Positions 1,341-44,110 of a stretch of 64,000 nt of DNA are shown here, one piece after another (position 1 is the first letter of the stretch; each line of letters begins with the position of its first letter). The notes under the pieces were generated by a model. That model saw nothing but the letters and a program-made list of their open reading frames with translations. It searched no databases and was not told where the DNA came from. Origin of the DNA: Pontibacter actiniarum (GTDB lineage Bacteria; Bacteroidota; Bacteroidia; Cytophagales; Hymenobacteraceae); assembly GCF_003585765.1 (NCBI RefSeq), contig NZ_CP021235.1, positions 3,100,001 through 3,164,000 of the forward strand, read 5' to 3'. Made by a program: the position numbers and the translations under genes.

Positions 1341-1483
1341 GCTTCTTTCGTTCTATGGTACAGGCCCCGCGCTACTGCAACATCGCTGTAACACCCGGAG
1401 CTATGGCTTGCGGCGCCTCACCCCCGGGGAACTGGCCCACAGGCAAAGCAGCAGCTTACACGTTAACTGTTTACAATTTACAC

Positions 1484-3346: not shown

Positions 3347-3773
3347 CCGATTCTCTAGCTCCTTATTACTATATATACTTTTTTATTCTAAATCAGCCAA
3401 TTGAACTTCTGTGGCCAAATTATTGCTTCTACTAAATTGTAAACGCAGAACTAATTCAGAATTAAAATTATTATTAATTTACAGACTGATTCTTATCAGA
3501 GGCTGGAAATTTAGCCAACAGAATCGCTTTTCTTTTCGTCTTATAAAGTATAGCGATGTTTATATCAAAGCTGGGGCTGGTGGCGTTAGCACAGTGAGCT
3601 ACTCTTGATGCCACGTTAGCTGCAGGTAGGCTGTAAGGCTCTCCACCTTCTCTTCAAATCAGCTGCCGGCAGTATCGGGGTAACCTCTGGAAAGGTCTGT
3701 GTTTCCGAACCGCCTTTTGCAAAATTAGGCTTAATTTTGACTTGTTCCAATTAATAAAATATAGTAGCGTAGG
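3347..3773. other. Divergent spacer between mutL and the NagZ fusion gene
   Basis: 427 bases without a convincing gene. It is AT-rich near both ends. Two AAGTATA/TATACTT words lie here (3374-3380, 3546-3552). A TAATTTTG at 3732-3739 fits the Bacteroidota -7 element TAnnTTTG for the gene at 3774, but I see no TTG at the right distance upstream, so the promoter call is weak. Confidence 0.4.
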
Positions 3774-6722
<2,949 letters not shown>

Positions 6723-6743
6723 AATAATATCAGTAGTTTAGCA

Positions 6744-6781
6744 GGTGCAGCAACAAAAGTTGGCTGCACTTGTTGTTTTGT
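6744..6781 (+). terminator. Probable intrinsic terminator after the GH3 fusion gene
   Basis: Arms GTGCAGC (6745-6751) and GCTGCAC (6763-6769) are separated by 11 bases and followed by a T-rich run TTGTTGTTTTG. It lies 22 bases after the stop codon and just before the bshA start. Confidence 0.5.
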
Positions 6782-6796
6782 CACACATCTGAAACT

Positions 6797-7933: not shown

Positions 7934-7961
7934 CCTCTTTGCTTTAGATAGGAAGCAATAA

Positions 7962-8000
7962 AAAGAACCGGTCACCTGCTGCGTGGCCGGTTCTTTTTTT
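7962..8000 (+). terminator. Intrinsic terminator after bshA
   Basis: AAAGAACCGGTCAC pairs with GTGGCCGGTTCTTT across a 7-base loop, followed by a run of seven T. It lies 28 bases after the bshA stop. Confidence 0.85.
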
Positions 8001-8050
8001 ATACCTTAAAGGCTTCTTTATGTGCGCCTTCTTACGCCCTATACTAAACC

Positions 8051-9943: not shown

Positions 9944-9959
9944 GACGCAACAGGTTTGC

Positions 9960-9985
9960 CCGGCACAAGCAGACACTTGCGCCAG
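9960..9985. repeat. Dispersed inverted repeat, copy 1 (serA-serC spacer)
   Basis: A 22-base core at 9962-9983 has arms GGCACAAG and CTTGCGCC. Read on the minus strand it matches the copy at 12632-12653 at 20 of 22 positions, and the match extends to about 25 bases. It sits between two genes of one pathway and could form a small stem-loop in their mRNA. Confidence 0.6.
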
Positions 9986-10010
9986 GGTCTATTATTTACA
10001 GGAAACATCC

Positions 10011-11099
10011 ATGAACAACAACATATACTTTACACCCGGCCCGTCTGAGCTGTACCCCACGGTGCCGCAGCACCTGCAGGAGGCGCTGGCACAGAAGATC
10101 GGCAGCATCTCGCACCGCAGCAAACAGTTTCAGGAGATCTATGCCAGTGCTGAGGCGGGCCTGAGGCAGCTGCTGCAACTGCCGGATGAGTATGAGGTGC
10201 TTTTCTTGTCATCAGCCACGGAGATTTGGGAACGGGCTGTTCAGAACAACGTGCGCCGCGAGAGCTTTCACCTGGTGAACGGCTCCTTCTCCAAACGCTT
10301 TTACGAAACAGCCCAGGAACTGGGCCGGGAGGCGCAGCAGCACACGGTCCCTTTCGGCCAGGGGTTTGATACGGCAAGTATAAAGGTGCCTGCTTCGGCA
10401 GAGTTGGTGGCTTTGATCCAGAACGAAACCAGCTCCGGTGCCTGCATGCCGGTAGAGGAAATTAACCAGTTCAGAGCAAAGTCCCCGGCTGAAGCCTTGA
10501 TTTACGTGGATGCCGTTTCCTCGCTGCCCTACCCCGCGTTTGACTATGCCAAAGTAGACTCGGTGTACTTTTCGGTGCAGAAGTGCTTTGGCTTGCCCGC
10601 CGGCTTGGGGGTGTGGCTGGTGAACGACCGCTGCATGGCCAAGGCCAGAGAGCTGCAGGAGCTTGGCCTGTCGACAGGGTCTTACCACACGCTGCCGTCG
10701 CTGCTGGAAAAAGCGCTGAGCCACCAGACAGTGGAAACTCCAAACGTGCTCAACATTTACCTGTTAAGCAAGGTGCTGGAGGATATGAACAGCAAAGGCA
10801 TTGAAGCCATCAGGAAGGAAACAGAAGCCAAAGCAGCCAAGATTTATACTTACCTGGAGAGCAGCAGCGTTTTTTCTCCTGCCGTTGAGAACCCACAGCA
10901 CCGCTCCAATACGACCATCGTAGCCAACTCAACTGTACCTGCCTCAGAAGTAAACAAACACCTGGCAGCGTTCAACATGCAGGTTGGCAGCGGCTACGGC
11001 AAGTATAAGGAGAGCCAAATCCGTATTGCCAATTTCCCGGCCCATAGTCCGGAGCAGGTTGATAGGCTACTAGAAAAGCTTCAGGACCAATTTAGGTAG
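10011..11099 (+). CDS. serC: Phosphoserine aminotransferase (SerC-like class V)
   Basis: 362 residues, a fold type I PLP enzyme. It starts NNNIYFTPGPSELYP, the class V aminotransferase opening. SISHRSKQF follows at about residues 32-40, and SVQKCFGLPAGLG holds the probable PLP-binding Lys191. It converts 3-phosphohydroxypyruvate and glutamate to phosphoserine, the step between the two activities of the upstream SerB-SerA fusion. The 67-base gap holds the dispersed inverted repeat, and a terminator follows the stop, so co-transcription with serA is likely. It is of the shorter, divergent SerC type, so annotation as a generic class V aminotransferase (serine-glyoxylate type) would be the main alternative; context favours SerC. 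Confidence 0.88.
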   Translation: MNNNIYFTPGPSELYPTVPQHLQEALAQKIGSISHRSKQFQEIYASAEAGLRQLLQLPDEYEVLFLSSATEIWERAVQNNVRRESFHLVNGSFSKRFYETAQELGREAQQHTVPFGQGFDTASIKVPASAELVALIQNETSSGACMPVEEINQFRAKSPAEALIYVDAVSSLPYPAFDYAKVDSVYFSVQKCFGLPAGLGVWLVNDRCMAKARELQELGLSTGSYHTLPSLLEKALSHQTVETPNVLNIYLLSKVLEDMNSKGIEAIRKETEAKAAKIYTYLESSSVFSPAVENPQHRSNTTIVANSTVPASEVNKHLAAFNMQVGSGYGKYKESQIRIANFPAHSPEQVDRLLEKLQDQFR

Positions 11100-11103
11100 T
11101 CAT

Positions 11104-11143
11104 AAAAAAGAGGGTCAAGGGCAATCCTTAACCCTCTTTTTTA
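11104..11143. terminator. Bidirectional intrinsic terminator after serC
   Basis: AAAAAAGAGGGT and ACCCTCTTTTTT form a long stem around an internal AAGG/CCTT pair. It has A-run and T-run flanks on both sides, so it can also serve the converging small membrane protein gene. Confidence 0.8.
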
Positions 11144-11170
11144 TATGTAAGTCAGCTCACCTGCGCCCTC

Positions 11171-11359
11171 TCAACGGGAAAAGGCAACAAACTCTATTGC
11201 CGTTAACAGCACAAGCAGGCAAAAGGTAACCACCAGAGCTAGTCCGGCTTTCTTAAACTTTGAGTTGTCCTTTTGAATAAGACCAGCAAGCAGATAGCCG
11301 AGCATACATAACAGCCCCACAGCTGTACCTAAAAGCTTTGTTAGCCAAATCCACGTCAT
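11171..11359 (-). CDS. Small two-helix membrane protein, unknown function
   Basis: 62 residues with two hydrophobic segments, about 8-27 and 40-60, separated by a short Lys/Asp-rich loop (QKDNSKFKK). No family recognised. It ends just before the terminator shared with serC and starts 33 bases after the stop of the next upstream gene on the same strand. A purine-rich GAGAGAG precedes the ATG. The hydrophobic pattern and operon-like placement favour a real gene over a chance frame. Confidence 0.6.
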   Translation of the reverse strand: MTWIWLTKLLGTAVGLLCMLGYLLAGLIQKDNSKFKKAGLALVVTFCLLVLLTAIEFVAFSR

Positions 11360-11392
11360 TCTCTCTCAGTAGTCGCTCTTAATTGCGCCTCT

Positions 11393-11926
11393 TTAAAAAG
11401 TCTGCCGCGCCTCCTGTTTCGCCGCGCTGATGGCACGGGCAGTCGGGTCCAGCTCATTGGTGAGCACGCTTTCCAGCACGCGCTTCGCCAGGTCTGTACC
11501 TCTGGCGCCTTCCGGCAACTCTTTAAACCCCTTGTTGATCATGTTCACAACATCTTCGCGGGCATGGTTTACCTGCTGCCACACCTGCTCGCTCATGTAC
11601 ACCTGCTGCGACATGTTATGGCTAAACTCGTTGCGGATCTCTGCCAGCAGCACCCGGTGGTACTCGGAGGCCGACTGCCCTGCCGGGCTTACGCGCAGCA
11701 GCAGGTTGCTCGGTGTAATGCGCTCCAGCAACAGCACGACCCGCTCGTATGCCTGCAGCCGTATTGGCAGCACCACGCCTGTGTTTTTCTCGTCTTTTTG
11801 GGTTGCCCGCAGCCGGTCCTCACGCTCGTAATGCTTTTGCAACAGGTAATAGGCCCCTGCCACCAGCACCAGCGCAGGTAAAACCAGCTTTAAAAGGTCC
11901 ACCAGCAGAATTATAAAATCACTCAT
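11393..11926 (-). CDS. Membrane-anchored conserved protein of unknown function
   Basis: 177 residues. One N-terminal transmembrane helix (about residues 5-27) is followed by a charged cytoplasmic helix (QKHYEREDRLRATQKDE) and an all-alpha soluble part with RLQAYERVVLLLERI and LLAEIRNEFSHNMSQQVYMS. I recall this pattern from Bacteroidota proteins of unknown function (possibly DUF7935), but I cannot confirm the family. It is co-directional with the small membrane gene downstream and divergent from the Fe-S carrier gene at 12069. Confidence 0.8.
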   Translation of the reverse strand: MSDFIILLVDLLKLVLPALVLVAGAYYLLQKHYEREDRLRATQKDEKNTGVVLPIRLQAYERVVLLLERITPSNLLLRVSPAGQSASEYHRVLLAEIRNEFSHNMSQQVYMSEQVWQQVNHAREDVVNMINKGFKELPEGARGTDLAKRVLESVLTNELDPTARAISAAKQEARQTF

Positions 11927-12068
11927 CTCGTCTGTATTTGAAAGTATAAATATCGCAAAAAATTAATTTAGGATACATGAATCATTTCCGTACTTTGCCT
12001 GTTAAGGAAGTACAGGGCACAGCCTAAGCATTTTTGCTTAAAATTGCCTAAGTTTGTGGCTACAAATA

Positions 12069-12428
12069 ATGATCGATACTATGGCAACAGAAACTAAAAC
12101 TGCACCTATAAGTTTGACGGAAAGAGCCTTGGAAGAGGTAAAAAATATTTTAAAGGAGAAGAATGTACCTGCAGAGTACGGCTTGCGCGTTGGTGTGCAG
12201 GGCGGTGGCTGCTCCGGGCTTTCTTACCTGCTCGGCTTTGATAAGCCAAAAGAGTCTGATGAGACGTTTCTGCTGGATGGCGTGACCCTCATTATGGATA
12301 AGAAGCACGGCATGTACGTGATGGGTATGGAGGTAGACTTTCAGGATGGACTGAACGCCCGCGGCTTTACCTTTAACAACCCACAGGCTAGCAGCACTTG
12401 CGGCTGTGGCAGCTCCTTCTCCGCTTAA
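12069..12428 (+). CDS. HesB/IscA-family iron-sulfur cluster assembly protein
   Basis: About 119 residues from ATG 12069; ATG 12081 (MATETK) is an equally reasonable start, and a TTG at 12054 is less likely. The A-type carrier signature is complete: GGGCSGLSY with the first Cys in the first half and TCGCGSSFSA at the C-terminus, giving the C-x(n)-CxC ligand set. It transfers assembled Fe-S clusters to client enzymes in the cytoplasm. No suf or isc partners lie beside it here. A strong terminator follows, so it appears monocistronic. Confidence 0.93.
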   Translation: MIDTMATETKTAPISLTERALEEVKNILKEKNVPAEYGLRVGVQGGGCSGLSYLLGFDKPKESDETFLLDGVTLIMDKKHGMYVMGMEVDFQDGLNARGFTFNNPQASSTCGCGSSFSA

Positions 12429-12455
12429 CCGAGAAACCTTCTTTCTCTTAGATAG

Positions 12456-12493
12456 GCAAAGCCCGGCTAGTACAGCCGGGCTTTGCTGTTTTT
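12456..12493 (+). terminator. Intrinsic terminator after the IscA-like gene
   Basis: GCAAAGCCCGGCT and AGCCGGGCTTTGC form a 13-bp perfect stem with a 5-base loop, followed by TGTTTTT. Confidence 0.88.
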
Positions 12494-12932
12494 AGAGCTA
12501 CAGCGCATCTCCCTTCTCTGGCCTTCCTAGCCCTATTCTAGCGCAAGTATTCAGACTCGTGTCTTAAACAGTATCGAGCTCGACCGGCTTGAAAAGCCAC
12601 ACTTACAGCTTATATTTGAAATAGCTTCTCTGGCGCAAGCGTCCGCTTGTGCCGCGACTGCCGCTGCTATACTTCCATAGCCTCTGCTTTCTAGCTTCCG
12701 CTCATCCTACAGCTCCCACGCACCTACCGTTTCACCTTACGCTTTGGAGCGCTCACGGCCGCGAGGCCTCGTGCTGGGGCCAGGGGTGGGGCCTCCTGAG
12801 TAGCTCTAAGCACAGTGTTTATACTTGGGCAGAGGCAGTTACAGACTCCACTCCTTAGACAAGCAGGGACAGGCGCGGTTGCACCCGAAGCTACAAGACT
12901 AACTCAAGACTCTGAACTGTTGACTCAGAACT
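12494..12932. other. Gene-free spacer with repeat copies
   Basis: 439 bases with no credible gene; a 69-codon plus-strand frame at 12649 has no protein-like pattern. It contains the best copy of the dispersed inverted repeat (12630-12654) and a degenerate one (12539-12565, left arm AGCGCAAG, right arm CTCGTGTC). Two TATACTT words lie at 12668-12674 and 12830-12836. From about 12650 to 12740 the plus strand is markedly pyrimidine-rich. The stretch looks like accumulated repeat debris, though this is inference. Confidence 0.5.
12630..12654. repeat. Dispersed inverted repeat, copy 2 (best copy)
   Basis: Arms GGCGCAAG and CTTGTGCC flank a 6-base centre CGTCCG, with the stem extendable by the G/C next to each arm. 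It shares 20 of 22 core positions with copy 1 at 9962-9983 and the same 22-base length as copy 3 at 59081-59102. Confidence 0.65.
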
Positions 12933-13814
12933 CTAAAAGGTCCGTGTCATGCTTTCAGGCACCACAAGTATAAAATCAGCTTTTTCTCTATTCTCCGCTG
13001 CCAGCTTTGCTAGGTCCTGCTGCAGCACGGTCGTGATCGTACGGGTTTTCACGCCCGGTTTCGCCTGCTTTAGATACCAGCCAATGCCTTCGAAGTTATC
13101 GGAGTGGTAAGCCCCGTTGAGGTGCAGCACCTGCCTACCCTGCTTTACCTGCTCCAGTATGAAGTGCGCCATGGTAGCGTCTTTCAATGCCTGTGCCTGC
13201 ACAATGTTTAGGCTCTTTGTGTTGCCGTGGGTGCCGCCGCCGAACATCGCCAGCATGTTTTTGTAGCCCGGCAACTCCATATCCACTGCCACAGGCAAGG
13301 GAGCCATGTACTTCTTGGCATCTTCTGACACACCTTCTAAAGCCGACAAGCTTCCGCCGGACACCATGGCGGCATAGCGGCGCGGCACGTTGGTCGCAGC
13401 AACCGGAATGTTTTGCTCCCTGGCATAGCGGATAACAGGTCTATAATCGGTGGCGTAGTTTGGCCACGGCCTCGACTCCTGCTCAAAGTTCTTTTCCGGC
13501 ACCTGCCCCGCCAGGTACTCGTCCAGCACCAGCTGCACGTCTGCCTCAAACATTTCAGCGCCTATGGCAAAGCTCTGTGGCTTAAGCTGGTGCAGGTCTT
13601 TGGCCAGCTCCAGCTGCATCCAGTGGGCGATCGGGTCGTTGTGCTGCTCGCCAAACAACACCACGTCTGCCTTCTGAAGCTCATCCAGCATTTTGCCGTA
13701 GCTTATACTTTTGCCCTCCCTAGTAAAGAGGCGGTAAGCAGGTTTATCGTTTTTCTGCGCCATGGCTAGCACTGTTACAGTCAGGAAAAAGAGGGTGAAC
13801 AAGCTGTGTTTCAT
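12933..13814 (-). CDS. ChaN family putative haem-binding protein (secreted)
   Basis: 293 residues with a cleavable signal (hydrophobic stretch ending LAMAQ). The mature part has VVLFGEQHND near residue 50 and HLNGAYHSDNFEGIGWYL near 230, the two conserved blocks of the ChaN/DUF399 family (PF04187). Campylobacter ChaN binds haem as a cofacial dimer and is linked to iron uptake; a role in haem handling here is inferred from the family only. No TonB or iron gene adjoins it, and it appears to be a single gene. Confidence 0.85.
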   Translation of the reverse strand: MKHSLFTLFFLTVTVLAMAQKNDKPAYRLFTREGKSISYGKMLDELQKADVVLFGEQHNDPIAHWMQLELAKDLHQLKPQSFAIGAEMFEADVQLVLDEYLAGQVPEKNFEQESRPWPNYATDYRPVIRYAREQNIPVAATNVPRRYAAMVSGGSLSALEGVSEDAKKYMAPLPVAVDMELPGYKNMLAMFGGGTHGNTKSLNIVQAQALKDATMAHFILEQVKQGRQVLHLNGAYHSDNFEGIGWYLKQAKPGVKTRTITTVLQQDLAKLAAENREKADFILVVPESMTRTF

Positions 13815-16009: not shown

Positions 16010-16913
16010 GGTGTGTTTCCTTTACTTTACGGATGAAGATATCGTTTATACTTGGCACCAGCTCTACGAAAGAGTGCACCTCTACGCGCTGAATCAGGTA
16101 GCGCAGCAGGTCGTTTGGCGTGGTGTTGTTCAGCAGCCGCACGTTTGCCCTAAAAACGCTGTGGTGGTTGTGCTGCTCCAGCACCTCAAAGTCCGGGGAG
16201 GTGATCATGAGCTGCCCGTTGCCGATGATCTGGTAGGTATCGGTTTTGTAGGCGTCTCTTATCTCCCTCACAGGCCCGTCCAGCACTTTATGGGCGCGGT
16301 TAATCAAGGCAATGTTATCGCAGAGCTCCTCCACCGACTCCATCCTGTGCGTGGAGAAGATAATGGAGGCCCCTTTATCGCGCAGGCTCAGGATCTCGTC
16401 CTTGATCAGGTTCGCGTTGATCGGGTCAAAGCCGGAGAAAGGCTCGTCCAGGATGATCAGCGACGGCTCATGCAGCACCGTGGCGATAAACTGCACCTTC
16501 TGCTGCATCCCCTTCGACAGGTCCTCGATGTTCTTGCCCAGCCACTCCCGTATCTCGAAGCGGTCTACCCACGCCTTGATACGGGCCGTTGCCTCCGGTT
16601 TGCTCAGGCCCTTTAACTGTGCCAGGTACAGCAGCTGCTCCCCCACCTTCATTTTCTTGTACAGGCCCCGCTCCTCCGGCAGGTAGCCCATTTCCCGGAT
16701 GTGGTCGGGCCGCAGGCGCTGGCCTCTAAAGTACACACTGCCGCTGTCGGCGCCCGTAATCTGGGTGATAATGCGGATGAGAGAGGTTTTGCCGGCACCG
16801 TTTGGCCCCAGCAAGCCAAAAATACAGCCCTGCGGAATTTCGAAGCTCACGTTGTCGAGGGCAGTGTGGTTGGCGTAGGTTTTGGTTACGCCGTCAATCT
16901 TCAGAATGCTCAA
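16002..16913 (-). CDS. ABC transporter ATP-binding protein (NatA-like)
   Basis: 303 residues. It has Walker A GPNGAGKTSL near residue 35, signature LSKGMQQK near 132, Walker B LIILDEPFSGFDP near 155, and a switch His in STHRM. A C-terminal extension of about 80 residues is usual for ABC-2 exporter ATPases. It is transcribed first in a two-gene operon with the permease at 14654-16009. Export of sodium, a drug or a lipid is possible, and sequence alone does not decide. Confidence 0.93.
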   Translation of the reverse strand: MSILKIDGVTKTYANHTALDNVSFEIPQGCIFGLLGPNGAGKTSLIRIITQITGADSGSVYFRGQRLRPDHIREMGYLPEERGLYKKMKVGEQLLYLAQLKGLSKPEATARIKAWVDRFEIREWLGKNIEDLSKGMQQKVQFIATVLHEPSLIILDEPFSGFDPINANLIKDEILSLRDKGASIIFSTHRMESVEELCDNIALINRAHKVLDGPVREIRDAYKTDTYQIIGNGQLMITSPDFEVLEQHNHHSVFRANVRLLNNTTPNDLLRYLIQRVEVHSFVELVPSINDIFIRKVKETHHV

Positions 16914-24010: not shown

Positions 24011-24048
24011 TTGTTAATCCTTTGGAAACGGGGGCTACCGGACTAATC

Positions 24049-32821: not shown

Positions 32822-35800
32822 ATGAAACTTCTCTACAACGTATTTCTCCTTTTTATTTTCTGCGTACTTCCGGTGCAACTTTTATGGGCCCAGGGAGCAA
32901 CGACAGCAGCGCTTAGCGGCACCGTAAAAGACCAGACGGGTACAGCCCTGCCCGGCGCTACGGTGATCGCCATCCACACACCAACGAACACGCAGTATGT
33001 GGCCAGCACGAACACCGATGGCTACTACAACATCCAGAACATGCGCGTTGGCGGGCCCTACACCGTCACCACCTCCTACATCGGCTATCAGGAGCAGCGC
33101 ATTAGCAGCGTGAACCTGGCGCTAGGCCAGACCGCCCGGGTCGACTTTTCGCTGGCGGAGAGCTCTCGCCAGTTGGGAGAGGTGGAAATTGTGGGCGAGC
33201 AGAACGACGTCTTTAACCAGGACCGGACGGGCGCTGCCACCAACGTATCGCGGGACCAGATAGAAAACCTGCCTACCCTGAGCCGCAGCCTGCAGGACTT
33301 CACAAGGCTTACACCGCAGGCGTCGGGCAACTCCATCGCCGGCTCCAACAACCGCTACAACAACATCACCATAGACGGTGCCGTGAACAATGACGTTTTT
33401 GGCCTGTCCGGCAGTGGTACACCGGGGGGCCAGGCTGGCTCCCAGCCTATTTCGCTGGACGCGATTCAGGAGATACAGGTGGTGGTGGCACCCTACGATG
33501 TGAAGCTCGGCAACTTTACGGGCGGGGGCGTGAACGCCGTGACCCGCTCCGGCACCAACACCTTTACCGGCTCCGTGTATGGCTACGGCCGCAACGAGGA
33601 CATCATTGGCAAATCGGTGGTGGAGCCGCGGGAAAAAGCGGATGAGTTTAAGAACTACCAGTACGGGGTACGCTTAGGGGGCCCCATCATCCAGGATAAG
33701 CTCTTCTTCTTCTTTAACTACGACGCCACCCGCTTTACAGAGCCAGTGCGCTTTGCCCCGGGCTCCACGGAGTCACAGATCCCCTTTGATGTGGCGCAGG
33801 AGTTGTCGGAATATGTGCAAAGCACCTATGGCTACGACGTTGGCTCCTTCGGCGCCATTGACCGGGAAACGCAAAGCGACAAGTTCTTCGGCCGTATTGA
33901 CTGGAACATCAACGACAAGCACCAGCTAACCGTCCGCCATAACGTGGTGGATGCTTTTGACGATAACATCTCGCGCAGCAGCGATGAAATCCGTTTCGGG
34001 AACAACGCCTACCGCTTTAACAGCACCACCCACAGCTCGGTGCTGGAGCTTAACAGCCGCTTCTCCAATGAGTTCTCCAACAACCTGATTATAGGCTATA
34101 CCCGCATCCGGGACAGCCGGGAAGCGCAGGGGGAGTTTTTCCCGCAGGTCACGATCTTTGACCCCATCGCCGACTTTGAATTTGGCTCACAGCGCTCCTC
34201 CACCGCAAACGAACTGGACCAGGACATCTTTGAGTTTACAGACAACTTTACCTACCTGCTGGGCCGCCACAACTTCACCATCGGCACACACAACGAGTTC
34301 TTCGATTTCCGGAACCTGTTTATCAACAACTTTAACGGGCGCTGGGAGTTCAACAGCCTGGAGGATTTCTACAACAACAACCCGAGGCGGGTGCGCGCCA
34401 CGTACTCGCTCCTGGACAACAACCCCACCCCTGCGGCTGAGTTCAACGCCCTCCAGCTGGGTTTTTACGCGCAGGATGAGTACACTGCGTCAGAGCAGCT
34501 GCGCCTGACACTGGGCCTGCGCGTAGACATTCCCGTGTTCCCGGACAAGCCGCAGGAGAACACGCAGTTCGAGAACGACTTCCGGAACGTGTACCCGGGG
34601 CTTGAGACGGATCGCACGCCAAGCGGACAACTGCTCTGGGCGCCCCGCTTCGGCTTTAACTTTACCCCGACCGAAGACCGCTCGCTGCAGTTCCGGGGTG
34701 GTACCGGTATCTTCACCGGCCGTGTGCCATTTGTGTGGCTGTCGAACCAGTTCGTGAACACTGGCACCATACTCGGCACCATCGACCGCCGCAACCCCGA
34801 CAGCTTTGTGGAGGATGTTAACCAACTGATCGACCCCTCCCAGCCGCAGACCTTTGAGATAAACGTAATCGAAGATGACTTTAAGCTGCCGCAAGTATGG
34901 CGTAGCAACCTGGCTATAGACTACACGCTGCCGTACGAGGTCTTCCTGACCGTGGAGGGAATCTACTCCAAAACCCTGAACGACGTGGTGTACAAAGACC
35001 TGAACCTCGTTGACCCCGTTGGCACCTTGCCCGGAGACAGCCCGGACAACCGCGAAATCTACCCGAGCAACAGGCGCATTAACGAAAGCTACACCAACGT
35101 GATCCTGTTGGACAACACAGACGAAGGGTACCGCTACAGCCTAACAGGCCAGCTGCGCAAGGACTTTGTAAACGGGCTGCAGATGACGCTGGCGTACACC
35201 TACGGCAAGTCGAAGGATGTGAACAGCGGCACCAACTCCACGGCGCTTTCCAACTATGAGTTCAACCAGATCGTGAACAACCCGAACGACCCGCAGCTCT
35301 CGTACTCCCGCTTCGATATCCGCCACCGCATTATTGGCAGCGCCGGCTACACTTTCCGGTACGGGGCTAACGACAACTTCGCCACAGGTATATCCCTGTT
35401 TTACCAGGGGCAGTCTGGCCAGCCGTTTACCTACCTTTACAACGGAGACCTGAACCGGGAGGGCAACTTTGCCAATGACCTGATTTACGTGCCCCGCGAC
35501 CAAAGCGAGATCAACCTGGTGCCTTTCAGCTCCGGCGGGGTAACCTACTCAGCAGACGAGCAATGGGAAGCGCTGGACGACTTTATAGAGAACGATGACT
35601 ACCTCAGCGACCGCCGCGGCCAGTACGCCGAGCGCAACGGGGCCCGCATGCCCTGGACACACCAGTTCGACCTCCGCGTGTTTCAGGACTTTATGCTCGA
35701 AGCAGGCAACAACCGCCACAAGTTCCAAATCACGTTCGATATCTTTAACGTGGGCAACCTCCTCAACCATGAGTGGGGCCACCAGTACTTTGTGAGCAAC

Positions 35801-35956
35801 GAGGCGAACGAGATAATCCGCTACGCCGGCCTTGACGACGACGGCATCCCCACCTTTACCTTTAACCCCAACAGCAGGCGGTACAACATCGCCCCCTTCG
35901 CCTCCAGGTGGCAGGGCCAGCTAGGCTTAAGGTATTTGTTTAACGACCGGCAGTAA
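32822..35956 (+). CDS. TonB-dependent receptor, Oar-like, with N-terminal carboxypeptidase-regulatory-like domain
   Basis: 1044 residues with a signal peptide ending LLWAQ. Residues about 25-115 form a CarboxypepD_reg-like Ig domain (GTVKDQTGTALPGATVIA, NMRVGGPYTV). The plug follows with NLPTLSRSLQDFTRLTPQAS, then NAVTRSGTNTFTGSVYGYGR, typical of Oar proteins. The C-terminal two thirds is a beta barrel ending in an aromatic-rich strand. It imports or secretes a ligand across the outer membrane with TonB energy; the ligand is unknown, and Oar proteins are also linked to protease secretion and development. It is a paralogue of the receptor at 40784-44110. A palindromic terminator follows. Confidence 0.94.
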   Translation: MKLLYNVFLLFIFCVLPVQLLWAQGATTAALSGTVKDQTGTALPGATVIAIHTPTNTQYVASTNTDGYYNIQNMRVGGPYTVTTSYIGYQEQRISSVNLALGQTARVDFSLAESSRQLGEVEIVGEQNDVFNQDRTGAATNVSRDQIENLPTLSRSLQDFTRLTPQASGNSIAGSNNRYNNITIDGAVNNDVFGLSGSGTPGGQAGSQPISLDAIQEIQVVVAPYDVKLGNFTGGGVNAVTRSGTNTFTGSVYGYGRNEDIIGKSVVEPREKADEFKNYQYGVRLGGPIIQDKLFFFFNYDATRFTEPVRFAPGSTESQIPFDVAQELSEYVQSTYGYDVGSFGAIDRETQSDKFFGRIDWNINDKHQLTVRHNVVDAFDDNISRSSDEIRFGNNAYRFNSTTHSSVLELNSRFSNEFSNNLIIGYTRIRDSREAQGEFFPQVTIFDPIADFEFGSQRSSTANELDQDIFEFTDNFTYLLGRHNFTIGTHNEFFDFRNLFINNFNGRWEFNSLEDFYNNNPRRVRATYSLLDNNPTPAAEFNALQLGFYAQDEYTASEQLRLTLGLRVDIPVFPDKPQENTQFENDFRNVYPGLETDRTPSGQLLWAPRFGFNFTPTEDRSLQFRGGTGIFTGRVPFVWLSNQFVNTGTILGTIDRRNPDSFVEDVNQLIDPSQPQTFEINVIEDDFKLPQVWRSNLAIDYTLPYEVFLTVEGIYSKTLNDVVYKDLNLVDPVGTLPGDSPDNREIYPSNRRINESYTNVILLDNTDEGYRYSLTGQLRKDFVNGLQMTLAYTYGKSKDVNSGTNSTALSNYEFNQIVNNPNDPQLSYSRFDIRHRIIGSAGYTFRYGANDNFATGISLFYQGQSGQPFTYLYNGDLNREGNFANDLIYVPRDQSEINLVPFSSGGVTYSADEQWEALDDFIENDDYLSDRRGQYAERNGARMPWTHQFDLRVFQDFMLEAGNNRHKFQITFDIFNVGNLLNHEWGHQYFVSNEANEIIRYAGLDDDGIPTFTFNPNSRRYNIAPFASRWQGQLGLRYLFNDRQ

Positions 35957-36027: not shown

Positions 36028-37170
36028 CTACTCACCTTCTTCAGCAAGTGTGTAGTCTCCGGACTCTCTCTTGATTAAAGTCACCGTGTTGGTTTTGTTA
36101 CCACTCTTATAGTAGGCATACGTTACTTCAAACTTCTGCCCTACTTCTTCGTTAGGGAACTTGTTCTTCAGGAAGCCTGAAAGTGCAACAAGAACATCTT
36201 CGTCGCTCCAGTAGTTGTCGTTACCCGCCCAGCTTTGGTAGAAATTAAGATACTTTGGATCCCCCAGGTTATCTCTTTGTGGCTGAGTTCCCAACTCAGG
36301 CTGTTTTGAGATCCAAACATAATCGTCAGCTACCAGCGTGTAGCTCTTGGTAAGGTCTGGCACCCAGGTACCTTGTTTCTTCTTAAGCTGCAGAACGGCT
36401 TCTTCTACCGCTTCAGGGTTCACTTTAACCCATTCGCTTCCGTTGTAGACCATCCCCAGCACCTGCTGCGTAGTAGTTTTGTTGCTATAGTAAGCATAGC
36501 TTACATACTTCACATCGCCTGCTACTGCACCGAATACAGTATTAGACAGAAGTTTATTAAAATACTCCGGAAGCAGATCGTCATCAGAGGATGAGAAGTC
36601 CGAACGCTTACCTACAGACGCATAATCTTCATCAGATACGTGATAAATATTACGCCACGCGCCATCTTTAAAATAGAAAGAATCTGTCACAGTGCTTGTT
36701 GCACCATTCTGGTAGTAATCATAAGTTAGCACCACCAGCTGATTCTCTACAGCATCCGGATATTTGTGCTCCAGCAGCTTAACCAAGTCACCGGCAGAGT
36801 TGAAGTTATCATGCGATTCTCCGGTGAAATCATAGTCCTCTGCCACTGCAGTATACTTTTCTACTTCTGATACCGAGCTGTTATAGCCCGGGAACATAAG
36901 TTTGTTGTAAGTAACTCGCACCGTAGAACCATTTTCTAAGTGGGAGTACGCCTCGTTTAGGAACTCCGGAATTGCTGCAGCAGCCTTCTCCTCTGTGGTG
37001 AAGTAGCTTTTGCCTTTAACCTCGGTGTAATCCTCGGACGATAGCGTAACATCTACTTTCTTGGTGAACGGCCCTTTTAGGGCGTCTAACTCATCGTAAA
37101 CGTCTTCCATCGGGTCACATGCACTGAACACGACCATCAAAGAAGACAGAAGGTATAATATCTTTTTCAT
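36028..37170 (-). CDS. Lipoprotein built of four related repeats, partner of a TonB-dependent receptor
   Basis: 380 residues. The lipoprotein signal ends VVFSAC with Cys18. The mature protein is acidic and made of about four related units of 70-100 residues, starting near residues 38, 106, 176 and 262. Each has an EDY/ADDY-type turn, a helical middle and a strand of the pattern VTYxYYxxG or VSYAYYSN, then a Trp/Tyr near the end (DGAWRNIY, GSEWVKV). No known family is recognised, and it has no SusD-like TPR pattern. The gene lies 11 bases after the receptor gene at 37182-39752 and so is almost certainly co-expressed. It probably sits on the outer membrane as a ligand-binding or lid component; this is inference from context. 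Confidence 0.85.
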   Translation of the reverse strand: MKKILYLLSSLMVVFSACDPMEDVYDELDALKGPFTKKVDVTLSSEDYTEVKGKSYFTTEEKAAAAIPEFLNEAYSHLENGSTVRVTYNKLMFPGYNSSVSEVEKYTAVAEDYDFTGESHDNFNSAGDLVKLLEHKYPDAVENQLVVLTYDYYQNGATSTVTDSFYFKDGAWRNIYHVSDEDYASVGKRSDFSSSDDDLLPEYFNKLLSNTVFGAVAGDVKYVSYAYYSNKTTTQQVLGMVYNGSEWVKVNPEAVEEAVLQLKKKQGTWVPDLTKSYTLVADDYVWISKQPELGTQPQRDNLGDPKYLNFYQSWAGNDNYWSDEDVLVALSGFLKNKFPNEEVGQKFEVTYAYYKSGNKTNTVTLIKRESGDYTLAEEGE

Positions 37171-37181
37171 CTAAGTATTTT

Positions 37182-39752
37182 TTAGAAGTTAATTTTTAGG
37201 CCTGTAGTCCAGGTTCTGCCGATGCCGTAGAACACGGTAGAGTTGGCAGCGTTGCTAACCGTTCTCTCGTTGTCAGTGCCTGCGTTTACTGTTTCGAACA
37301 CCGCCTGCGCATCAGAGATGTACTCTGTGTTGAGAACGTTATTCACATTTGCATAAAGCGACGCGTCCAGGCCTGCAATTTTAATCTTAAACACAGCGTT
37401 CAGGTCTAGCAGTGAGTAGTTTGGCACTTTCCAAGGTGTTAAACCCGGCTTGTCCAGCGTTGTTGGGTCAAACTCAGAGTAGAAGTCGCCATAATAGTTA
37501 TAATCTACACCAACCTTAAGCTCTTTGAATACTTTGTAGTCCACACCAAGAGCCGCAGTAGTCTGAGCAGCGTCCCCAACTTTAAGCCCTTCCATGTAAA
37601 GCGGACCTATAGTTTTGGAGATTGTCTGTGTTTCGTCAGTTACCGTTACCTCATCCAGGTTGCTATTCCACTCCCAGTCACCAAATGACGCCATACCTCT
37701 GATAGTAAGCTTATCAGTAGGCATATAGCTGAAGTCAACTTCCACACCCTGGTGCAGGGCATCAACACCAAGAATGTTAGCAAAGAAAAAGCTTCCTGAC
37801 TCCTGACCTGGGAATCTCTGTGTGAAAGAGCGGTCTCTCCAGTTGGTTCTGTACAGGTTGATGTTGGCGTTCAGCTTTGAAGTTCTGTAACCGTAGCCTA
37901 ATTCGTAGCTAAGGATCTTCTCGTTCTGCGCATCCGGGTTTACTACGTTCTGGTTGTTCAGGAACACAGCGTTGAAGAACGGTGCTTTCTCAAAATAGCC
38001 AAGGTTAGCAAACACGTTGTGGTTTTCATTCAGGTTGTAGTTGGCACCACCTTTTGCCTGGTAGCCGAAGAAGTGCTGGAAGTCTGTTTCCTGGTTGCCT
38101 TCTTCATACAGAAAGTGGTCAATTCTCTTGTAGGAGGTGTTAGAGGCCGCAAGCGAAACGAAAGCAGAAAGTGGTCCTGAGCTGTACTCACCCTGCAGGA
38201 AGCCACCCTCCCACAGCACAACGCCATCGTTGTAGTAGTTGATCTTGTCGCCTACAGTAGCTCTGTTGTTAGGGTTGTTCACATTGCTCTGGTCCAGCAC
38301 ATACTCAGCACCCAGCAAATCGGTTACTTCTGTAAAGTGTTTGCCTTTGTAGTATCTCAAGTCAAGGCCGGCAAGCAGGTTTATCTTCTCGTTCAGGCTC
38401 TTTTGGTATGTACTCAGGGCACCATACCAGTTGTGGTCGTTTCTGGAGGCACGAAGGTAAGTCAAAGCATGGCCGTCAGCAGAGTTGGTGTTCGCTTCAA
38501 CCGCTGCATCCAAATCGTAAGGTGAGTATGCGTTACCTGTTCTTGGCAGTACACCTGTGAAAGCGCCACCACCACCTGTGCCAACAGAAGCATAAAGTGC
38601 AGTAGAAAGGAAAGAGTTCTCGTCGATAGTCCAGTAGTGGTTAAGAGAGAACTGTGGTTTGTGGTAGAAGTTATCCTCTACACTTACTTTTTCTCCGTTC
38701 AGTACACCCCAGTCAGGGTTCCACTTAATGCCTTGTGGAGCATCTCTGAACTCCTGGATAGATTTGCGGGTTTGTCTCTGGCCGTGCCACTGTGGTGCGC
38801 CGAAACCAGTAAGGGAGATTGTGTGGTTCTTGTTGATCAGCTTAGAAACGTTGAAGAAGTAGTTGTACGCCTCAAACTGCAGGCCGTCAGCCCAACCGTT
38901 GCCTTCTGTTTTAGAGCCGGAAGCTGCAAACGCCCAGCCATCCTCAGTTAAACCTGTTGAGTAGGTAAAGGCAACTTTGTTATAGCCATCGTTACCGATG
39001 CCGTAGAAAACAGAGCCTCCTTTTGTAGCATCAGTAGTTTTAGTGATGATGTTGATCGTACCACCGATAGAAGGCACCGCCACTTTAGAGGCACCAAGGC
39101 CACGCTGCACCTGCATTGACTTCGTCACGTCTGTCAGACCGGCCCAGTTAGACCAGTACACCGAGCCGTTCTCCATGTCGTTTACCGGCACACCGTTGAT
39201 CATTACGGCGATGTTAGCGTTTTTAAAACCTCTCAGGTTTATTCTCGAGTCACCGAAGCCGCCACCTTGCTTCGTTGCGTACACACCTGGTGTAGACTTC
39301 AGAAGCTCAGGGAACTCCTGGTTTGAGGCTTTCTCGGTGATGATCTCGCTGGTGATCGTGGAGATAGCCACCGGCGTTTCCCTGTCAATGGCGTAGCTGT
39401 TCGCAGTGATCAGTACTTCGTTGATAGAGGTTACGTTAGGCTCCAGAAGGATAGTGCCCAGGTTCTTCTTGCCGTTCAAACCGGCAATGGAAACTTCTTT
39501 CTGCATATAGCCAACATAGTTAACTAATACAGCAGACGCATTCGCGTCATCTACCTGTAGGGTAAAGGTACCGTCCAGCGTGGTAGGCGCTGCTTTTTCT
39601 GTACCTTTTAGGATAACTGTTGCTCCTGGCAAGGGCTCTTTCGTTGTGGCGTCCACAACTTTACCTGTAACGGTGCCTTGAGCAAACAAGTCCCTTGGCG
39701 TTAAACTGGTTAGCAACACCAGAAAAACAAGACTAAGTAAATTGTACTTCAT
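37182..39752 (-). CDS. TonB-dependent receptor with CarboxypepD_reg-like domain
   Basis: 856 residues, signal peptide ending DLFAQ. It has a regulatory-like domain at about 25-110 (GKVVDATTKEPLPGATVIL). The plug starts near 120 and includes TPGVYATKQGGGFGDSRI and RGFKNANIAVMINGVPVNDM, followed by a barrel with Tyr/Asn-rich strands. It is shorter than, and not closely similar to, the two Oar-like receptors around it. It forms an operon with the repeat lipoprotein gene downstream, and a full Bacteroidota promoter precedes it. Codon use is visibly less GC-rich than in the housekeeping genes, with many T-ending codons, which suggests high expression or a different history. Confidence 0.94.
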   Translation of the reverse strand: MKYNLLSLVFLVLLTSLTPRDLFAQGTVTGKVVDATTKEPLPGATVILKGTEKAAPTTLDGTFTLQVDDANASAVLVNYVGYMQKEVSIAGLNGKKNLGTILLEPNVTSINEVLITANSYAIDRETPVAISTITSEIITEKASNQEFPELLKSTPGVYATKQGGGFGDSRINLRGFKNANIAVMINGVPVNDMENGSVYWSNWAGLTDVTKSMQVQRGLGASKVAVPSIGGTINIITKTTDATKGGSVFYGIGNDGYNKVAFTYSTGLTEDGWAFAASGSKTEGNGWADGLQFEAYNYFFNVSKLINKNHTISLTGFGAPQWHGQRQTRKSIQEFRDAPQGIKWNPDWGVLNGEKVSVEDNFYHKPQFSLNHYWTIDENSFLSTALYASVGTGGGGAFTGVLPRTGNAYSPYDLDAAVEANTNSADGHALTYLRASRNDHNWYGALSTYQKSLNEKINLLAGLDLRYYKGKHFTEVTDLLGAEYVLDQSNVNNPNNRATVGDKINYYNDGVVLWEGGFLQGEYSSGPLSAFVSLAASNTSYKRIDHFLYEEGNQETDFQHFFGYQAKGGANYNLNENHNVFANLGYFEKAPFFNAVFLNNQNVVNPDAQNEKILSYELGYGYRTSKLNANINLYRTNWRDRSFTQRFPGQESGSFFFANILGVDALHQGVEVDFSYMPTDKLTIRGMASFGDWEWNSNLDEVTVTDETQTISKTIGPLYMEGLKVGDAAQTTAALGVDYKVFKELKVGVDYNYYGDFYSEFDPTTLDKPGLTPWKVPNYSLLDLNAVFKIKIAGLDASLYANVNNVLNTEYISDAQAVFETVNAGTDNERTVSNAANSTVFYGIGRTWTTGLKINF

Positions 39753-39793: not shown

Positions 39794-39825
39794 CAAAAAT
39801 ACAACCCTAGTTCGTTAACTTTCAA
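39794..39825 (-). promoter_or_regulatory. Promoter of the receptor-lipoprotein operon
   Basis: Minus strand: TTG (39823-39825), 21 bases, TATTTTTG (39794-39801). This full match to TTG-N19-23-TAnnTTTG predicts a start point about 35 bases before the ATG. Confidence 0.65.
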
Positions 39826-40729
39826 CTAAAAGCATTAAAAAAAGATAAATTAACCTCTCTATACTTTATGCTTTTTTAATATAAAAACCTCAGTGTTTTT
39901 ATGCATATACAAGATTTACAACCAATTGCAAATCACAACTAAACACACCACCAAACCAATCCTGTTTATATAATACAACAATCACACATCAGTTAATCCA
40001 GCCTGAAAAATTTAACTATATAATGATTATCAGGTTTACTCCATAGAGGAACATAGACCTAAAAACAACCGCCAATAAAGGCTTAATGCTTATAAAAGTA
40101 TATATTTATAAATACATCGTTCAGAAACACAACCAAAGCTACCTTGTATTATTTAACCTTTTACCAAGCAACAAACAAAGCACAGCATAATTATAATTAT
40201 ACAAGCTACCTTAAAGGTACTTATAGTAAAATAAATAAATTTAATAACATTTGTTAAGCGATAAACACCATAATCACAAAACAACAACTAGTACGTTTCC
40301 CATACATACACTAACTTATATAGCCAAGAAATAATAAAACAAAAGCAGGAGAAGCTCACCTGAAATAAAAGACCGCCACTACAGCAAAAGCGAAGCAAGC
40401 AACGCCAGCCACAACTTACCCACCTCACTCCATCATAAAGCAGAAGCATAGAACAGAACTTAAGCCATAAAAGACAACAAGCGCCACAGCAACAAATATT
40501 GCATTTTAGCAACAAAAGCGCTAAAGCCACGGCAAACACACCACACATATATTTGCCAAAGCAGATATATGATATTAGCATGGCACCGGAACAAGGAACA
40601 CCAACCCGATACTTGTGAAACACCTCCTTATAAGTCACTACAGATCAAATTATTACTAGCCGCTATCTGGAAATTCGGGTAAACGGTTAAACATCAACTT
40701 TGGAAACAAATAAATAATATCAGGTGTGC
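39826..40729. other. AT-rich, A/C-skewed spacer between two divergent receptor promoters
   Basis: About 900 bases with no supported gene, visibly the most AT-rich part of the window. From about 39900 to 40620 the plus strand is dominated by A and C, with few G. A 116-codon minus-strand frame (40288-40638) is an artefact of this skew: very Cys- and Leu-rich with no domain. Two AAGTATA/TATACTT words lie at 39860-39866 and 40096-40102. No clear inverted repeats were found. Confidence 0.5.
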
Positions 40730-40759
40730 TTGTATTATCACCAACACCGGTTACTTTTG
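40730..40759 (+). promoter_or_regulatory. Promoter of the Oar-like receptor gene at 40784
   Basis: TTG (40730-40732), 19 bases, TACTTTTG (40752-40759). Transcription would start near 40766, which rules out the in-frame GTG at 40724 and supports the ATG at 40784. Confidence 0.7.
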
Positions 40760-40783
40760 CGGGCAAAATCAATCAACCCATTT

Positions 40784-43700
40784 ATGAAAAACTTTTATAA
40801 TGCCTCGCTGCCCACACTTAACGGTATAAGGCGTAGTAAGGAGCAAAGAGTTACAGCCCAACATCACAAGAATTTCTTCAAGAGATTCTTACTCTCCAGT
40901 ATGCTCATGTTGTTATTTGCCGCCGGTGTACAGGCCCAGGTAACGACAAGTGGCATCAACGGTGTCGTTAAAGACTCGCAGGGCGAAACCCTGATCGGCG
41001 CTACCGTGCAAGCGATCCATCAGCCCTCAGGCACCACCTATGGTACGACAACCAACGCTGAAGGCCAGTTCACAATCCCTAACATGCGTGTTGGCGGCCC
41101 TTATACGGTTAACGTTTCGTATATCGGCTTTAACACCAGAACGTACAACGGCCTTAACTTAACGCTGGGTAACCCGCTGAGACTGGATGTGGCACTGGAA
41201 ATGCAGTCAAACGCTTTGTCAGAGGTTACAATCGTTTCAGACAAGAACTCTGTGATCAGCGCCCAAAGAAACGGCACAGCTACAAACGTGTCGCAGGAGC
41301 AGATTTCGGAGCTTCCGACTATCAGCAGAAGCGTGCAGGATTTTGCCCGCCTGACGCCACAGGCTTCGGCCATGACCAACAACTCTGACGGCAGCCCGAT
41401 GGGTGTTACATTTGCCGGCCAGTCTAACAAGTTCAACCAGTTTACAGTAGACGGTGCCAACGCCAATGACGCCTTTGGCCTTTCTGCCTCAGGTACCAAC
41501 GGCGGACAGGCTGCCGCTAACCCAATCCCGCTTGAGTCTGTTCAGGAACTCCAGGTGTTGCTTTCTCCGTACGAAGTAACACAGGGTGGTTTCACAGGTG
41601 GTGGTATCAACGCCGTTACAAAGAGTGGTACCAACGCCTTCCACGGTTCAGCTTATACTTATTACCAGAACCAGGACTTTATTGGCGAAGGGGTTACAAC
41701 TGACCTGAAGTACGCTGATTTTAGCAAGAAGACCTACGGTGCCAGCCTTGGCGGCCCTATCCTGAAGAACAAACTGTTCTTCTTTGCTAACGCTGAAAGA
41801 ATCGAGAGCTCTACCCCGTTACCTTTTAACCCAGCTGAAGCTGGCTCAGGCTCTAAATTCGATGTGGAGACGCTGCAGTCGATCCGCGATTATGTTAGAA
41901 ACACCTACAACTACGACCTTGGCGGCTTTACCGACATCAACAAAGAGATTACCTCTACTTCTTTGTTTGCCCGTCTGGACTGGAACATCAGCAACAAGCA
42001 TAAGTTAACGCTTCGCCACAGCTATATCCAGGGCGACAACGACGCCTTGAGCCGCAGCGCCAACAGCATAACGTTCGCAAACAGTGGCTATACGTTCTCT
42101 AACAACCAGAACTCCTCTGTGATTGAGTTGAACAGTAACTTCGACAACAACACGTCTAACGTGTTCCGCGTTACCTACAACCGCATCCGCGACAGCAGAA
42201 AGACAGGCCTGTTCCCGAACGTGTCTATCCAGTCTAACTCATTGAACTACAACCTGGGTTCAGATTATTCTTCAGCCCGCAACAGCCTTGACCAGGACAA
42301 CTTTACGTTGGTAGATAACTTCACCATCTACAAGGGAGCTCACACGATCACGATCGGTACCAACAACGAGTTCTATAACACGAATAACGTGTTCCTGCAG
42401 AACTACTACGGCTCTTATACTTACAAAGACGTAGAGGTGAAAGACGCAAATGGCAAAGTGATAGGCAGCATCCCAGCCTACCAGCTGTTTATGGAAAACA
42501 AGAAGGCTCCGTCTAACTACTATGTAGGCTTCTCTACGAAGGGTGGTAACGATGATGCCGCGTCAGTGATACATGCTGCTCAGTTTGGTTTGTACGCCCA
42601 GGATGTCTGGAACGTGACGGACAGGTTCAGATTGACGTACGGCTTGCGTGTAGACATGCCAGTGTTCTTCAACAAACCGGATGAAAACGAGCTGTTCAAC
42701 AAGTCTGAGTTTGCCTCGAAGTATGACGTAGCCACAAACAAGCCTCCGAAGACAACGCTGTACTACTCTCCGCGTGTGGGCTTTAACCTGGATGTTAACG
42801 GCGATGGAGCAACACAGCTGCGCGGTGGTGCCGGTTTATTCACAGGCCGTGTTCCTTTTGTATGGATCTCTAACCAGTATGGTGGTACAGGCGTAGCCTC
42901 TATCAGATACAGCACGACAGGCTCAAAGTCTCCGGACCTGCGCTTCGAGTATGACCCTACCGACACGCACTTGGGTTCATTTATCCCATCGGAGTACAAA
43001 ACAGCTGCTACTGAGATCAACGTAACAGACCGTAATTTCAAGTTCCCGCAGGTTTTCCGCACCAACTTAGCCGTTGACCAGCAACTGCCTTGGTGGGGAC
43101 TGGTAGGAACCCTGGAAGGTATGTACACCAAAACGCTGAACAACATCGAGTACAAGAACCTTAACCTGAAAGCGCCTGAGGGAGATGTAACCATCGGTAA
43201 CTCTACGCGCCCTTGGTATAGCTCAAGAATCAGCTCTGACTTTACAGACGTTATTTACTTAACCAACACAAGCAAAGGCTACTCTTACAACTTTACAGCG
43301 CAGTTGCAAAAGCCAATGGAAAGAGGCTGGACTGGTAGCATCGCCTACACCTACGGCCACTCCATGTCCCTGAACGACGGCACCAGCTCTACAGCGATGT
43401 CTAACTGGCGTTATGCGTACAACGTAGACGGCCTTAACAACCTGGACCTGGCGCGCTCTAACTACGACCTTGGCTCACGTGTGGTAGGCTACGCTTCTAA
43501 AACCGTGAAGTATGGTCGCTTTGCCACCACTGTTGGCTTAGTGTACACCGGTCAGTCTGGTTCTACACTGTCTTACCTGTACGATGGCAACATCAACGGT
43601 GATGACCTTTCTGGCAACACCAATGATGCGAGCTTGTTCTATGTACCGGCAACGTTTGAAGAAGCAAACCTTGTGGCCTTCACAAGAGACGGCAAAACAG

Positions 43701-44110
43701 TTGCTCCAGAGCAGCAGTGGGCCGACTTCCAGGCTTTCGTAGCTGACAACGAGTACCTGAAGGACAACATGGGCAAAGTTACTGAGCGCAACGGCGACAG
43801 AATGCCTTGGGAAAACCACTTCGACCTGAAGATTGCTCAGGACATCTACGTAGTGAAAGACCACAAGCTGCAGTTGGGTATCGACGTGATCAACGTTAGC
43901 AACCTGCTGAACAAAGACTGGGGCTGGAGCTACTATCAGTCTAACCAGAGCATGAACATCTTCCAACGCTCAGGAGACCCTTCACAAACGCCAGGCTTTA
44001 AGTTCGATATAACGAAAATGAATGAGGTTGAAGGCAAACTGAAGCCGTACACTGTAAGTGACTACGGTTCACGCTGGAAAGCTCAGGTAAGCTTACGTTA
44101 CTCTTTCTAG
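40784..44110 (+). CDS. TonB-dependent receptor, Oar-like
   Basis: 1108 residues from the ATG at 40784, the first start downstream of the promoter. A long basic N-terminal region of about 30 residues precedes the hydrophobic signal core (SSMLMLLFAAGVQAQ), an unusually extended signal. It then has the CarboxypepD_reg-like domain (GVVKDSQGETLIGATVQA, NMRVGGPYTVNVSYIGF), the plug (ELPTISRSVQDFARLTPQAS, NAVTKSGTNAFHGS) and an Asn/Tyr-rich barrel ending SRWKAQVSLRYSF. It is paralogous to the receptor at 32822-35956. Codon use is less GC-rich, like the neighbouring 37182 gene, consistent with strong expression. The ligand is unknown. Confidence 0.94.
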   Translation: MKNFYNASLPTLNGIRRSKEQRVTAQHHKNFFKRFLLSSMLMLLFAAGVQAQVTTSGINGVVKDSQGETLIGATVQAIHQPSGTTYGTTTNAEGQFTIPNMRVGGPYTVNVSYIGFNTRTYNGLNLTLGNPLRLDVALEMQSNALSEVTIVSDKNSVISAQRNGTATNVSQEQISELPTISRSVQDFARLTPQASAMTNNSDGSPMGVTFAGQSNKFNQFTVDGANANDAFGLSASGTNGGQAAANPIPLESVQELQVLLSPYEVTQGGFTGGGINAVTKSGTNAFHGSAYTYYQNQDFIGEGVTTDLKYADFSKKTYGASLGGPILKNKLFFFANAERIESSTPLPFNPAEAGSGSKFDVETLQSIRDYVRNTYNYDLGGFTDINKEITSTSLFARLDWNISNKHKLTLRHSYIQGDNDALSRSANSITFANSGYTFSNNQNSSVIELNSNFDNNTSNVFRVTYNRIRDSRKTGLFPNVSIQSNSLNYNLGSDYSSARNSLDQDNFTLVDNFTIYKGAHTITIGTNNEFYNTNNVFLQNYYGSYTYKDVEVKDANGKVIGSIPAYQLFMENKKAPSNYYVGFSTKGGNDDAASVIHAAQFGLYAQDVWNVTDRFRLTYGLRVDMPVFFNKPDENELFNKSEFASKYDVATNKPPKTTLYYSPRVGFNLDVNGDGATQLRGGAGLFTGRVPFVWISNQYGGTGVASIRYSTTGSKSPDLRFEYDPTDTHLGSFIPSEYKTAATEINVTDRNFKFPQVFRTNLAVDQQLPWWGLVGTLEGMYTKTLNNIEYKNLNLKAPEGDVTIGNSTRPWYSSRISSDFTDVIYLTNTSKGYSYNFTAQLQKPMERGWTGSIAYTYGHSMSLNDGTSSTAMSNWRYAYNVDGLNNLDLARSNYDLGSRVVGYASKTVKYGRFATTVGLVYTGQSGSTLSYLYDGNINGDDLSGNTNDASLFYVPATFEEANLVAFTRDGKTVAPEQQWADFQAFVADNEYLKDNMGKVTERNGDRMPWENHFDLKIAQDIYVVKDHKLQLGIDVINVSNLLNKDWGWSYYQSNQSMNIFQRSGDPSQTPGFKFDITKMNEVEGKLKPYTVSDYGSRWKAQVSLRYSF

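Follow-up and report, generated by a model that had tools for sequence, protein, structure and literature searches.

A TonB-dependent receptor and its four-repeat lipoprotein in Pontibacter actiniarum, a candidate uptake pair for nucleic-acid fragments

The window analysed here is a stretch of 64,000 nucleotides from Pontibacter actiniarum (contig NZ_CP021235.1, positions 3,100,001 to 3,164,000), and hosts a gene for a TonB-dependent receptor followed, 11 bases downstream, by a gene encoding a lipoprotein made of four related repeats. The best reading of the two genes, to which we give a probability of about 0.5, is that they serve together in the TonB-driven uptake of nucleic-acid fragments. 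Nucleic-acid products are candidate ligands because nuclease genes neighbour the pair in relatives, and its recurrence beside secreted nucleases makes it a concrete, testable candidate for the passage of DNA pieces across the outer membrane. The pair, its domains, its repeats, its conservation and its linkage to nuclease genes in relatives are established here, as is, in single cases, a linkage to nucleotidase and phoU- or pst-type genes.

Nuclease genes beside the pair in relatives

Neighbouring genes were surveyed in 36 loci carrying the pair, scanned with hidden Markov models (HMMs) built from the neighbours, most of them Pfam-confirmed, over flanks of up to ~10 kb, shorter at contig ends. 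Fifteen loci belong to the genus of the window (the window itself, L001-L006, L008-L010 and L073-L077), and 21 lie outside it (L007, L011-L015, L032-L038, L054-L056 and L068-L072). Of the 21 outside loci, 12 encode Endonuclease I (PF04231) no more than 4.3 kb from the pair; Pfam confirms all 12 enzymes, and eight of them carry a type IX secretion system (T9SS) tail. An S1/P1 nuclease is found beside the pair in L035, in place of Endonuclease I, which brings the loci with a secreted nuclease to 13 of 21. Gene orders differ. Endonuclease I is convergent with the pair in L007, L011, L012, L013, L068 and L072, lies downstream on the same strand in L014, L015, L032 and L037, and upstream, again on the same strand, in L056 and L070. 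Locus L056 is a single-strand run of DUF5689, Endonuclease I, 5'-nucleotidase, receptor and lipoprotein genes. PhoU is encoded next to Endonuclease I in both L007 and L068, and a Pfam-confirmed PstS-type binding protein is also encoded in L007. In L037, which carries the pair and Endonuclease I, an adjoining receptor-like gene is accompanied by a DUF5689 gene and an Exo_endo_phos_3 gene; positions 700-12952 of this locus gather, within ~12 kb, receptor-lipoprotein pairs of the repeat type and of the DUF5689 type and two nuclease genes.

The linkage recurs in several lineages, in differing gene orders, and far above expectation. PF04231 was found in 18 of the 25 pair genomes searched (the genome of L013 was left out), and eight of the 25 have it no farther than 6 kb from the pair. 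The number of linkages expected from gene counts and genome sizes is 0.09 at 6 kb (Poisson 1.2e-13) and 0.13 at 10 kb (Poisson 2.3e-12), figures to be taken as a guide only, as the statistic ignores the kinship of the genomes and some linkages were known before the test. Endonuclease I occurs in 128 of 395 genomes of the phylum. Ten Endonuclease I genes unlinked to the pair served as a control (L058-L067), and none has a repeat lipoprotein nearby. Other receptor-like genes lie within several kb of Endonuclease I in two of these loci (L066 and L067), so that a receptor near a nuclease is not special by itself.

Make-up and conservation of the pair

The distribution of the pair in Bacteroidota is recurrent but patchy. 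With the window counted, it was identified in 21 of 204 genomes of the family (15 of the window's genus, six of a second genus, g330), in eight of 395 genomes of the phylum, and in 12 of 395 genomes of the class; four of the latter (G470, G705, G624 and G607) are weak, N-terminal matches spanning only the first 33-65 positions. These counts may be too low, since at most four candidates per genome were scored in the phylum and class surveys, and at most nine in the family survey. A search for related loci returned 15 loci, each with a receptor gene immediately upstream of the lipoprotein gene. Short or duplicate stretches around matches already represented (L018-L031 and L039-L053) were left out. 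The gap between the two genes measures 10-77 bases in 17 of 18 pairs, and 291 in L038. In this locus (8447-10370) the lipoprotein open reading frame (ORF) lacks a normal start, and the N-terminal match lies in a separate frame of 50 residues; the gene may be broken or frameshifted.

The receptor carries CarbopepD_reg_2, Plug and TonB_dep_Rec_b-barrel domains, all above the Pfam cut-offs; plug (PF07715, 53.7 bits) and beta-barrel (PF00593, 68.7 bits) qualify it as a TonB-dependent receptor. No NCBIfam receptor subfamily was matched at cut-off. Among receptors of solved structure, those closest in sequence are 9gbc ('TonB-linked outer membrane receptor'), matched at residues 7-275 with E 4.4e-18, and BtuB (E ~5e-7), both matches being confined to the N-terminal third. 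In a receptor tree, 23 pair receptors, that of the window included, share one side of a branch (support 87/92) against eight other receptors, a comparison set whose branches are mostly very long. Membership in the SusCD class was considered and rejected. As in SusCD/RagAB importers, a CarboxypepD_reg-like TonB-dependent receptor adjoins a lipoprotein gene, but the receptor scores 81.4 bits against TIGR04056 (SusC/RagA), far under the cut-off of 368.25, and the lipoprotein matches no SusD family in Pfam at E 1.

The lipoprotein, a single copy in its genome, has a lipobox and an acidic stretch past the cysteine. The stretch DPMEDVY which follows the cysteine is invariant in an alignment of 14 sequences (A1), and looser in one of 18 (A2). 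We set the unit borders on the 18 rows of A2. When profiles of the four units were compared, all six pairs gave probabilities of 96.4-99.0% (E 1.4e-9 to 2.6e-18), the maximum among 120 column-shuffled controls being 2.03%. With an HMM trained on the same units (domain E < 0.1), 15 of the 18 lipoproteins examined show four copies, that of L037 six matches, corresponding to about five units, and those of L038 and L056 three matches each, with a long central gap. The majority consensus, YxLxxxDY..NF..KYP..VTYxxY, was drawn over 60 of the 65 units listed (alignment A3). In L014, L015 and L036, repeats 2 and 3 are separated by a DUF5017-like domain, which passes the Pfam cut-off in L014 but not in the other two. 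Coordinates are collected in the table.

Features of the receptor-lipoprotein pair in the window (positions in the 64,000-nucleotide stretch)
Feature	Position	Strand	Basis and remarks
TonB-dependent receptor gene, 856 aa; CarboxypepD_reg-like domain, plug, barrel	37182-39752	minus	ORF and Pfam
Four-repeat lipoprotein gene, 380 aa	36028-37170	minus	ORF; repeat profiles; outside Pfam/NCBIfam
Lipobox cysteine codon (Cys18; lipobox FSAC)	37117-37119	minus	sequence and alignment
Repeat 1, residues 36-104	36859-37065	minus	repeat HMM
Repeat 2, residues 101-178	36637-36870	minus	repeat HMM; modelled alone at pLDDT 94
Repeat 3, residues 173-253	36412-36654	minus	repeat HMM
Repeat 4, residues 272-378	36037-36357	minus	repeat HMM
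Promoter-like site TTG ... TAnnTTTG	39794-39825	minus	42-73 bases upstream of receptor start; upstream alignment, kept in many relatives

No described family in Pfam, NCBIfam or the PDB sequences was found to correspond to the repeat. The window lipoprotein matched no Pfam or NCBIfam family; neither DUF5689 (Pfam, E 1) nor DUF5017 was found in it. None of the 18 family members matches Pfam at E 0.01, and against NCBIfam one of the 18 gives a weak match (TrsH, E 0.0037). Among PDB sequences nothing was found with the window lipoprotein, and family or repeat profiles reach only E 0.22 to 0.83. The whole lipoprotein was modelled with a predicted local distance difference test score (pLDDT) of 86 and a predicted template modelling score (pTM) of 0.57; a single repeat (pTM 0.82) is predicted to fold as a strand, two helices and three strands. 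Foldseek returned no match in PDB at the threshold of E 0.001, the best being 2.0e-3 (TM 0.13) for the whole model and 4.1e-2 for the repeat. The best VIA-align Z scores, 4.2 and 5.0 (the latter for a phage T5 tail-tip chain), were treated as chance, as were SH2 domains at Z ~3; the repeat may nonetheless have a known fold.

The original prediction, made from the sequence alone, is confirmed in what it observed and supported in its interpretation: it had placed the lipoprotein gene 11 bases after the receptor gene, and coordinates and strand agree with the ORF listing; it had seen about four related units with an EDY/ADDY turn and a VTYxYY strand, both features of the consensus; and it had taken the lipoprotein not to be SusD-like, and the system to stand outside the SusCD class. 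Of the two outcomes it had named as refutations neither came about, since the repeat gave no match to a described family in Pfam, NCBIfam or PDB sequences, and the pair is kept in relatives. The ligand, called unknown in that prediction, can be narrowed to a candidate class, as the neighbours found in relatives point to nucleic-acid breakdown products. The lipoprotein could be assigned to no named family of these libraries, and relatives supply a testable ligand class for it; the pair adds to TonB systems a partner whose repeat Pfam and NCBIfam do not describe. Among published open-access papers, a literature search returned no description of this receptor-lipoprotein pair.

Proposed mechanism and rival explanations

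In the model proposed, the receptor and lipoprotein genes would form one operon, read as one transcript, and secreted nucleases such as Endonuclease I would cut extracellular DNA outside the cell. We infer all the steps which follow nuclease secretion. The lipoprotein, plausibly anchored at the outer membrane and exposed on the surface, may cover the receptor like a lid or serve it as a capture arm. The repeats, rich in aromatic residues, may hold the ligand, capture occurring via base stacking or metal ions; aromatic residues make up 14.7% of the lipoprotein family and 8.9% of 62 other lipobox-like ORFs, though the comparison is crude. The receptor would then move the ligand, most likely oligonucleotides, nucleotides or nucleosides, into the periplasm with TonB energy, and nucleotidases and the Pst system would act after uptake. 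The copy in the window would keep a nucleic-acid ligand in spite of the lack of linked nucleases in its genus. A bolder version is tentative, and has a modest chance of being right. According to it, the pair would be an undescribed type of outer-membrane transporter, in which the receptor accepts oligonucleotides or DNA strands from the repeat lipoprotein and imports them as polymers. Bacteroidota that forage on DNA would use it to bring their food across the outer membrane, and in function it would be a sister of the transformation receptor of Riemerella.

One study (PMC8289736) counts Bacteroidota among the important consumers of extracellular DNA in marine sediments, and Lutibacter, the genus which hosts the nuclease-linked pair of L011, is reported there to take up carbon from DNA. 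The DNA-degradation loci described there resemble those found here in bringing together nuclease, nucleotidase and phosphate-transport genes, but they belong to Izemoplasmatales and rely on ABC transporters for import. Neither TonB nor SusC is mentioned in the main text of that study.

Several observations weigh against nucleic-acid fragments as the ligand, besides the limits of the linkage statistic. No nuclease is linked to the pair in any of the 15 loci of the window's genus, the window included, and the genome of the window contains no Endonuclease I; its S1/P1 nuclease is unlinked to the pair. Outside the genus, eight of 21 loci lack both Endonuclease I and S1/P1 in the vicinity of the pair. 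L033, L034, L036, L054, L069 and L071 gave no match to either enzyme (the contig of L069 ends ~3 kb past the pair), and in L038 and L055 the sole candidate is an Exo_endo_phos gene, a few kb from the pair, which was excluded from the nuclease count. The ligand class is suggested by the gene neighbourhood in relatives, and these neighbours are missing at the window's own locus. Near the window pair no Pho-box-like site was found, by which we mean the motif TTAACA-N5-TTAACA, chosen after viewing upstream sequences and not a validated Pho box; the best upstream site has three mismatches, and was equalled in 96 of 100 shuffles. The chief physical objection to nucleic-acid capture is acidity. The median net charge of the lipoprotein family is -10.1 per 100 residues, against -3.4 in the same crude comparison with 62 lipobox-like ORFs, and the window receptor has a net charge of -23, so that direct binding of polyanionic DNA is not favoured.

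In a rival explanation, the pair would take another ligand, such as a metal complex, a cofactor, a peptide or another nutrient, the linkage with nucleases being incidental, or ligands would be lineage-specific and the window's genus would use a different one. The lack of linked nucleases in that genus, where all 15 loci have instead an Oar-like receptor (OMP_b-brl_4 type) convergent downstream of the pair, the acidic lipoprotein, and the resemblance of the receptor to 9gbc and BtuB all point this way; but a linkage which recurs in several lineages, in differing orders and far above expectation, speaks against it, and we hold this explanation unlikely. Slightly less likely still, in our view, is a phosphorus-scavenging pair induced by phosphate starvation, which would take organic phosphate of any kind (such as phosphodiesters, nucleotides or lipid headgroups) and not nucleic acids in particular. 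In Flavobacterium johnsoniae (PMC8115612), phosphate depletion induces EndA1 and EndA2, two Endonuclease I enzymes, along with receptors, among which Fjoh_3841, annotated pf13620, and hypothetical lipoproteins. The loci Fjoh_0545/0546 and Fjoh_3857/3856 resemble the present pair in combining a receptor with a hypothetical lipoprotein, but the window pair lacks a Pho-box-like site, and the lipoproteins were compared by description only. The explanation also draws on the PhoU gene that adjoins Endonuclease I in L007 and in L068. Sites with one mismatch to the motif were found upstream of the L007 nuclease and of five of 17 other pairs, the latter with shuffle fractions of 0.01-0.07 and not taken as support. 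In turn, the pst-type genes of the window's genome lie elsewhere in the genome (their names, beyond the binding protein, were read from ORF starts). The region upstream of its pstS has a perfect TTAACA-N5-TTAACA repeat, but the eight other perfect sites lie mostly by genes not recognised as phosphate genes, as judged from ORF starts.

A third explanation, that the pair is a DNA-uptake receptor for natural transformation, is quite improbable. A receptor-like barrel and a protein with DUF5689 and DUF5017 domains are reported to be essential for transformation in Riemerella anatipestifer (PMC8459023), in a study whose authors regard their own model of DNA binding and transport as speculative. Either of two tonB mutations lowers transformation in this species; for one, the authors point to iron supply (PMC8383284). 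The Riemerella genes RA0C_RS04915-RS04920 and the present pair, compared by description only, share the scheme of an outer-membrane barrel with a companion protein, and the DUF5017-like domains of L014, L015 and L036, as well as the DUF5689 genes adjoining the pair in L037 and L056, strengthen the parallel. The window lipoprotein, however, has neither domain, the repeat HMM does not find the repeat in two DUF5689 proteins, and the pair is linked, in relatives, to nucleases, enzymes which are degradative.

Repeated sites, flanking genes and minor features

The TTAACA direct repeat is possibly a Bacteroidota regulator site. The genome of the window has nine perfect two-unit matches, and none for the pattern read backwards. 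Upstream of pstS the direct repeats have an 11-base spacing (positions 9038-10236 of L080, contig C1 of the window's genome, ~4352200). In the 64-kb window a single match with two or fewer mismatches was found, where 3.71 were expected; it lies at 24012-24028, at a distance from the pair. The promoter-like site upstream of the receptor gene follows the -33/-7 promoter consensus.

In the window, two Oar-like receptor genes (OMP_b-brl_4 and CarboxypepD_reg, Pfam-confirmed) flank the pair, at 32822-35956 and 40724-44110, both on the plus strand. The convergent Oar-like receptor of L005 (11960-14395) is an ORF of 811 residues, against ~1040-1070 in most relatives, and may be shortened or frameshifted. 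L012 hosts, at 16131-16881, two ORFs of 100 residues, ~450 bases apart, the listed first 45 residues of which are identical. T9SS tails gave 35 matches in the genome of the window.

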